Shown here: in pieces, positions 8,090-10,078 of the stretch
How positions within the stretch are numbered: the stretch's first letter is position 1
How the letters are laid out: every line of letters starts with the position of its first letter
Assembly: GCA_003290465.1 (NCBI GenBank)
Contig: CP030759.1
Location: 784,672 to 848,671 of the forward strand
DNA from: Candidatus Sumerlaea chitinivorans
GTDB taxonomy: Bacteria > Sumerlaeota > Sumerlaeia > Sumerlaeales > Sumerlaeaceae
Reading direction: 5' to 3'
Length of the DNA: 64,000 nucleotides
Program-made: the position numbers and the translations under genes
The notes under the pieces: model-generated
The model's input: only the letters and a program-made list of their open reading frames with translations
Told to the model about the DNA's origin: nothing
The model's database searches: none

Positions 8090-10078
8090 CTAATCTCCTA
8101 CGCGTTGGCCTTTAAGTCTCTGAGTCAAGCGTGTGAAGCTTTGAAACAGACCGCCGATTTCCCTAATTCCGAAAAACTTACAGGCAAGTAGGTACACCAA
8201 AGCGCCAACAATGCTAATCGCGGTGAGTCTTGTCAGTTCAGGCAACTGAAGAGCCCGCAACCATCTAACGTGTGGTCGATCGTCGTAGATCACGAAGCGT
8301 ACATTGGCCGAATCAAAGGTCCCAGCCATCTGGGCTACAAGAAAGGCAGGCTCAGCGGGAGGTGTGGTCCCAGCTGGAATCGGACGCCGATAGACCTCGA
8401 CAAGAAGCTCCGGCGTAGAAGCGCCTCCCGTCCACGTCGCCTGTGCTAAGCGTAGCCAGGCATGACACGTACCACGCGGAGCAAAAACCACGACCACACG
8501 GTTTTTGCTAAAGTCCACAGTGGGAACTGGCGAGTCCTCTTGGCGTAACAAGCTCCAGAAACGTTGGAATTCCTGCTGCTCGCAAAGAACTAACGACCCG
8601 CCTGCATCATAGCGCGCACTGACATGAGCAGGGAACTCCCGCCCTTGTTCCAAGATAGCGATTTTCGGTTGGGTCAGAGTCAAAAGAGGCCACACAAACG
8701 CAGCCATAGCAAGCGATGCCCCCAACATCCGCCCACAATAGAGAAGTAGGTCGGGAAGCAGCGTCCACTCAAGTCGCTTACGCAGTGCGTTCAACGAGAG
8801 AGCAAGGGTGAAGACATACGTCACAGCCGAGCTCAGTGCGATCCCCGGGATGCCAAACCACCTCATGAAAAGGAAATTCAAGGCGATATTCAGGACAACA
8901 CCAGCTATGTTGATCCATGCAGGAGTTCGGGTGTCCTTGAGAGCGTAAAATATTCGAGTCGCAAACACCACAAGAGCGTAGGGGACAATAGAGAGTGCAT
9001 AGAGTGCCAGGAAACGGCTTGTGAATAGACTATCTGCATAGTGGAACTGACCCCGTTCAAACAGAACTCGGGTAATCGGCTCGGCCAGAAGGCAAATACC
9101 AACGGAAATCGGCAGAAGTGCTAAAGTTGTCCACCGAACCCCGCGGCTCATGGTCTCGAGAAACTGCGCGCGGTCATCTTTTGCTGCATGCTCAGCAAGC
9201 GTCGGGTAGAGAACAGTCGCAATCGAAACAGCGATAATGCCGTAGGGCATCATCACAAGCTGAAAGCAAAACGTATACGTGGTGTAGCCGCCCCCAACCG
9301 AATAAAGGAGGTTTGTGCGCACAGCTGTTGCCACAAGGTTGGCAGCTGCCACCACAAGGACCGGAAGGCTTAGGGTCACGACAGATCCCAACAGGGGGTC
9401 CCGAAGCGAAAAGCGTGGCCGGATTGGCATCCGGATCTTGAGAAGCCACGGTACCTGCACCAATGCCATGGCCGCGATGCCTGCTGTCGTCCCAACCGCT
9501 AAGCCCGTTACACCAACCCAACCCATGCGATAGAGAAGTAGCGTAGTGATCACAACAACGTTGTTTAGGATAGGGGCAGCGGCGGTGATTCCGAAAATCT
9601 TGTGAGAGTTCAAAATGGCCATGAAAACAGCATTCAGGCCGTAGAAGAACATTTGGGGTGCGAAGAAGCGAAAGAAGTACACCGATAGCTCACGACTGGC
9701 AGCCGCATGACTGCTTTTTCCGAGTGCTGTCAGTAGGCCAACGATTTGTGGCGCAAGCGCAACTGCAGCTGCCGAAACAATCGCGAGGATTCCTCCCACG
9801 TAACCCAAGAGGAGATTTGCGGTGCGCCACGCTTCCGGCGAACTTTTGCCGTGTCGCTGTTGCTCGCGAACAAGTAGGGGGATCAGGATGGAACTCAGAA
9901 CGCCGCCGATGATGAATTCGTAAAGGATGTTTGGAATGGTGTTTGCGAGCTGATATGCGTCATCGAATCGCCCACTCCCAAGAATGGCCGCAAAGGCCAT
10001 TACTCTTAGCAAGCCCGTGATGCGGCTAAGTAATGTGAGAAACGAAAACGTCGTCGTATGGCGAAGTACTTTGTTCAC
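8090..10078 (-). CDS. murJ: Lipid II flippase MurJ with a periplasmic PrcB-like insert
   Basis: MurJ flips the peptidoglycan precursor lipid II across the cytoplasmic membrane. Residues 1 to about 466 form the MATE-like membrane core, opening with TTTFSFLTLLSRITGLLRVM and containing GRFDDAYQLANTIPN, typical of the family. The product is 662 residues long, against about 510-550 for most MurJ proteins. The excess is a soluble stretch of about 140 residues (roughly 470-608, bases 8255-8671) between the last two membrane helices. With standard MurJ topology that loop faces the periplasm. It contains VDFSKNRVVVVFAPRGTCHA, then LLVEVYRRP and PAFLVAQMAG, which resembles the PrcB C-terminal family. 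The start is GTG 10078. The gene is divergent from the E2-like gene. The MurJ call is firm; the insert's identity is inferred. Confidence 0.9.
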   Translation of the reverse strand: MNKVLRHTTTFSFLTLLSRITGLLRVMAFAAILGSGRFDDAYQLANTIPNILYEFIIGGVLSSILIPLLVREQQRHGKSSPEAWRTANLLLGYVGGILAIVSAAAVALAPQIVGLLTALGKSSHAAASRELSVYFFRFFAPQMFFYGLNAVFMAILNSHKIFGITAAAPILNNVVVITTLLLYRMGWVGVTGLAVGTTAGIAAMALVQVPWLLKIRMPIRPRFSLRDPLLGSVVTLSLPVLVVAAANLVATAVRTNLLYSVGGGYTTYTFCFQLVMMPYGIIAVSIATVLYPTLAEHAAKDDRAQFLETMSRGVRWTTLALLPISVGICLLAEPITRVLFERGQFHYADSLFTSRFLALYALSIVPYALVVFATRIFYALKDTRTPAWINIAGVVLNIALNFLFMRWFGIPGIALSSAVTYVFTLALSLNALRKRLEWTLLPDLLLYCGRMLGASLAMAAFVWPLLTLTQPKIAILEQGREFPAHVSARYDAGGSLVLCEQQEFQRFWSLLRQEDSPVPTVDFSKNRVVVVFAPRGTCHAWLRLAQATWTGGASTPELLVEVYRRPIPAGTTPPAEPAFLVAQMAGTFDSANVRFVIYDDRPHVRWLRALQLPELTRLTAISIVGALVYLLACKFFGIREIGGLFQSFTRLTQRLKGQRVGD

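Follow-up and report, generated by a model that had tools for sequence, protein, structure and literature searches.

The murJ gene of Candidatus Sumerlaea chitinivorans, from a family of uncultured Sumerlaeota, encodes the membrane protein that moves cell-wall precursors to the outer side of the membrane. It lies in the window analysed here, a stretch of 64,000 nucleotides from a single-contig genome of 3.29 Mb, and raises the question of why the product of a core cell-wall gene should carry a large extra segment. A sequence-only reading of this DNA had placed that segment between the last two membrane helices of the 662-residue product, on the periplasmic side, and had likened it to PrcB, a family known from surface protease complexes. 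We therefore asked whether the segment is a real insertion, what it is related to, and what a domain at this site might do for a lipid II flippase.

An insertion between the last two helices of MurJ

The murJ product matched the TIGR01695 MurJ model over residues 4-467 with 310.9 bits (cut-off 235.55) and is the sole MurJ above cut-off in its genome, where two further matches scored 34 and 22 bits. The Pfam MurJ family (PF03023) covers residues 29-471, and this match ends where the insert begins. The gene and its parts are as follows:

8090..10078, minus strand: murJ gene, 662 aa, GTG start; lipid II flippase of the MOP superfamily
8672..10078, minus strand: MurJ core, TM1-TM13, residues 1-469, from the Pfam MurJ match (29-471), predicted helices and PDB MurJ chains that align to residue 469
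8672-8767, minus strand: TM13, residues 438-469, a predicted helix
8255..8671, minus strand: inserted periplasmic segment, residues 470-608, between TM13 and TM14
8174..8245, minus strand: TM14, residues 612-635, a predicted helix kept throughout the family and followed by a basic cytoplasmic tail

The extra segment was thus confirmed where the sequence-only reading had put it, at residues 470-608 (window 8671-8255), and it adds about 140 residues. Across 44 aligned MurJ frames, the TM13-TM14 loop measured 140-145 residues in the six full-length members of the family and 0-17 residues in every other MurJ, which indicates a real and conserved insertion. The nearest relative outside the family, G010 (42% identity), has a loop of 8 residues. 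The likeness to characterized MurJs (6cc4, 7waw and 5t77) is otherwise extensive, with 14 helices, a core spanning residues 4-469, the arginines R18 and R24, and the TM13-TM14 hairpin itself.

The insert was present at the same site in all seven Sumerlaeaceae genomes with a murJ match, which represent six genera. Six of these genes are complete and the seventh (G007) is divided between two contigs, with the insert located in its C-terminal piece; in an eighth family genome (G006), which is 66% complete, murJ was not found. Since independent genomes carry the insert at one locus, contamination or assembly error was ruled out as its origin, and by parsimony we infer one insertion event in the ancestor of the Sumerlaeaceae. 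A second, divergent MurJ-like gene was seen in one family genome (G005:C70:67925-69442), where a 544 aa frame scored 222.9 bits, slightly under the TIGR01695 cut-off; it matches the entire model and therefore apparently lacks the insert.

MurJ has 14 helices with its N- and C-terminus both in the cytoplasm. This topology, together with the basic tail beyond TM14, places the TM13-TM14 loop in the periplasm, in support of the location proposed earlier. The structure models were built with only three sequences and were both poor (mean pLDDT about 52); at this low confidence, the full model has 14 membrane helices and MurJ structures as its best PDB matches, and the insert is predicted to consist of strands and one helix, with no membrane span, between TM13 and TM14.

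Relationship of the insertion to PrcB

When the inserts were compared by hhalign with a set of 13 PrcB proteins, the probability was 97.6 and the score 73.3 over 99 columns (insert columns 29-133), compared with a best score of 23.7 in 100 column-shuffled control runs. The aligned elements comprise the first strand, a tryptophan-containing helix with the conserved aromatic (EFQRFW aligned with EWENLW), a P-x-(V/I)-(D/N)-F strand, typically P-x-VDF, and later strands. Two features within the insert are defined by these profile matches:

8285..8599, minus strand: PrcB-like domain proper, residues 494-598, delimited by hhalign; a strand, the helix EFQRFWSLL, the VDFSKNRVVVVF strand and more strands
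8480..8596, minus strand: match to NCBIfam NF033596 (denti_PrcB), residues 495-533, E = 4.6e-5, 23.3 bits

NF033596, which models the PrcB subunit of dentilisin from Treponema denticola, matched five of the seven inserts when these were searched alone, although weakly (best E-value 4e-6), and in six-frame genome searches it matched the murJ frame in four genomes. The scores of 23-25 bits are under the equivalog cut-off of 125, so that the inserts do not qualify as dentilisin PrcB equivalogs. The earlier proposal of a resemblance to PrcB thus holds at the level of these profiles and of the insert profile described below, but not for the Pfam family to which it had been tied: none of the seven inserts matched PrcB_C (PF14343; gathering cut-off 24 bits), even at E-values up to 10, and PF14343 had no match in the host genome or in 40 genomes of the phylum. 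The inserts miss PF14343 because their C-terminal signature has diverged. The PrcB_C motifs, a TGGY-type motif after the VDF strand and an LTQPY-type motif later, are replaced in the inserts, with TGGY becoming PRGxTTAT and TQPYHIV becoming PxxPAFLVA. The insert is therefore best described as a diverged homologue, below Pfam-grade membership. The individual motifs named in the sequence-only reading fared in the same mixed way; VDFSKNRVVVVF and VEVYRRP are positioned as the same elements in PrcB, whereas GTCHA, which sits where PrcB has TGGY, is not conserved within the family and is no PrcB signature.

The reciprocal search led to the same protein family. When 386 genomes were searched with a profile built from the seven inserts, the seven MurJs came first at E < 1e-53, followed by other proteins at E-values of 7e-8 to 0.008, which were mostly PrcB-like proteins and included no MurJ. 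Nineteen of the matches were scanned, and 11 were above the PF14343 cut-off, two more matched weakly, and several others had the same motifs; L039 and L040 scored 31 bits with the insert profile. When the search was widened to three more phyla (2-4 genomes each), one additional PrcB-like match was found. Two matches in the 386 genomes, a Mur ligase (L066) and L067, were judged to be due to chance, as were Pfam matches to capsid and turret domains, each of which was seen with a single insert and reached E 4e-4 at best. Searches of PHROGs and of PDB sequences with the insert gave no credible match.

It could be argued that the insert is a beta-rich domain without relation to PrcB, whose likeness to it is coincidental, given that PF14343 was missed, that the NF033596 matches were weak, and that structure comparison was empty: Foldseek with the insert model (pLDDT about 52) returned nothing under E 0.001, and its acetyltransferase matches, at E above 0.4, were dismissed as meaningless. 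The profile matches in both directions, an alignment that spans the domain in full and the low scores of the shuffled controls nevertheless make this very unlikely. Together, the profile comparisons support the assignment of the insert to the PrcB superfamily by homology, and we are highly confident in the overall anatomy of a PrcB-homologous insert that faces the periplasm.

Constraint on the insertion

Between genera, the inserts are 18-42% identical, compared with 51-66% for the core. In two genomes of one genus, pN was 0.15 in the core, 0.30 in the insert and 0.47 in the TM13/TM14 flanks, and pS for the insert was 0.87, a saturated value. Purifying selection acts on the insert within this genus, though less strongly than on the core. 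Its faster divergence fits either weak constraint or changing partners. One reading is that the PrcB-derived domain was inserted once and has been tolerated as a self-folding unit, without any role in flipping. The rapid divergence between genera, the loss of the PrcB_C signatures and the fact that a loop of just 0-17 residues suffices in other MurJs are compatible with such a passive decoration. However, the insert persists in six genera, its reading frame unbroken, and its pN is far under pS and lower than that of the flanking helices, and we therefore regard passive decoration as unlikely.

Altered cavity residues in the MurJ core

Three cavity arginines, R18, R24 and R255/R270, are essential in studied MurJs (PMC9973255). 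R18 and R24 are retained in the family MurJs, but R270 (E. coli; TM8) is replaced by Q, I or V in seven of seven and by S in G010, so that the set of three arginines is incomplete. A different arginine, R254 in TM7, is invariant in the seven family MurJs and G010 and absent from all other aligned MurJs. In addition, R52, R53 and E57 are replaced by Y, E and G in the family. The altered core positions correspond to residues 53, 54, 58, 254 and 273 of the protein encoded at window 8090-10078, and the change is common to the family and G010. The presence of the arginine change in G010, whose loop is short, indicates that it predates the insertion.

These replacements raise the possibility that the protein is a MurJ paralogue for another lipid-linked sugar rather than the flippase of lipid II, with the inserted domain as part of that other pathway. 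We consider this improbable, since the TIGR01695 equivalog cut-off is passed, no second such gene is present in the host genome, R18 and R24 are kept, and, judging from the alignment, R254 in TM7 may replace the lost R270. Because the third arginine is essential elsewhere but falls outside the family model's cut-off, the claim of lipid II flipping is lowered rather than dropped.

A possible docking or sensing role at the lipid groove

TMs 13 and 14 of MurJ form a hydrophobic groove that is thought to hold the undecaprenyl tail of lipid II (PMC9973255, PMC6465408). As the inserted domain is on the outer end of the TM13-TM14 hairpin, it is well placed for the exit of the flippase or for an adjacent partner, and this suggests that a factor beyond the membrane may tether or regulate the flippase. 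PrcB of T. denticola offers a precedent, being a lipoprotein that interacts with the protease PrtP and is required for its expression or presence (PMC8167434). Like the MurJ insert, PrcB is extracytoplasmic, but it is a free lipoprotein, while the MurJ domain sits inside a membrane protein, has diverged TGGY and TQPY signatures, and scores under both curated cut-offs.

PrcB-like domains also occur in other proteins recovered here. L051:949-1791 and L064:1465-2475 encode proteins with an anti-sigma-like cytoplasmic part in which the PrcB-like domain is probably the outer part; as in the MurJ family, an inner-membrane protein thus bears a PrcB-like module on its outer face, although they are single-span regulators rather than transporters and their matches are under curated cut-offs. 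Together with the PrcB lipoprotein, they suggest that PrcB-type domains recur as outward-facing modules of envelope proteins. Other arrangements were a 1001-residue protein with several PrcB-like domains in tandem (L061:91-3093) and a CsgG-type protein, also with a weak LpoB match, that carries a PrcB_C domain at its C-terminus (L065:598-1797).

In the mechanism that we propose, a domain of the PrcB superfamily was inserted once, in the family ancestor, into the periplasmic loop of the TM13-TM14 hairpin, and would fold in the periplasm beside the groove from which the lipid tail of lipid II exits. There it would serve for protein docking, in the way that PrcB serves the PrtP protease, and keep MurJ close to a partner in the periplasm or the membrane. 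The most plausible candidates for this partner are the peptidoglycan synthases, an envelope hydrolase and an envelope protease. The flipping of lipid II would thereby be coupled to its use. We rate such a docking role, drawn by analogy with PrcB, as having about an even chance of being correct. Some observations temper it. The TGGY and LTQPY signatures have mostly disappeared from the inserts, and a binding surface inherited from PrcB may therefore be lost too. Furthermore, the conserved neighbours of murJ are not cell-wall genes, which counts against docking. The locus is orthologous across the family; fusA adjoins murJ in four genomes, and the order of accB, accC, a lipoyl-domain protein, lipB and lipA is kept in the two longest loci (L031 and L032).

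A second possibility is that the domain acts as a sensor or gate, which would open or close the flippase on binding of a small ligand, of a fragment of peptidoglycan or of the headgroup of lipid II itself. Its location at the exit of the TM13-TM14 groove is consistent with this, as is the outer position of the PrcB-like domains in L051 and L064, where a sensor is expected. On the other hand, no conserved ligand-binding motif was found among the inserts, in which the residues that never vary (G, P, F, L and V) are of the kind usual in the core of a fold, and we know of no PrcB domain that binds a peptidoglycan fragment, the lipid II headgroup or a similar ligand. We thus hold protein docking to be the likeliest role, with ligand sensing, which is on the unlikely side, second and passive decoration third. 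The complete picture is offered only tentatively: the flippase would carry its own periplasmic domain for docking or sensing at the lipid-groove exit, this domain would couple the flipping of lipid II to an outside partner, and one of the three cavity arginines would have moved from TM8 to TM7 in the same lineage.

Comparison with other MurJ proteins and significance

Compared with the MurJs of known structure, the family proteins have 140-145 extra residues between TM13 and TM14, have lost R270 and gained R254, and have R52, R53 and E57 replaced. A MurJ with added domains has been described in mycobacteria, where MviN (MurJ) carries a carbohydrate-binding domain and a regulatory pseudokinase that recruits FhaA and has an inhibitory effect on peptidoglycan synthesis (PMC12599244). 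The suggestion that a regulated or scaffolded lipid II flippase would be without precedent was therefore too strong, and a MurJ with an accessory domain is already known in principle. The two architectures are nevertheless distinct: the mycobacterial pseudokinase lies at about residues 710-942, past the MurJ core, whereas the Sumerlaeaceae MurJ has its PrcB-like domain within the TM13-TM14 loop, ends about 30 residues past TM14, and has no kinase-like domain according to Pfam. No report of a PrcB domain in any MurJ was found in the open-licence papers searched, and both the type of domain and the TM13-TM14 site appear to be new, at least to us.

It is not settled how cells coordinate the flipping of lipid II with the use of this precursor beyond the membrane. 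A periplasmic domain set into the hairpin of the lipid groove provides a bait for a partner and allows the capacity of this hairpin to transmit control to be tested. The PrcB family, known from the protease complex of a pathogen, at the same time gains a place in a core cell-wall enzyme.
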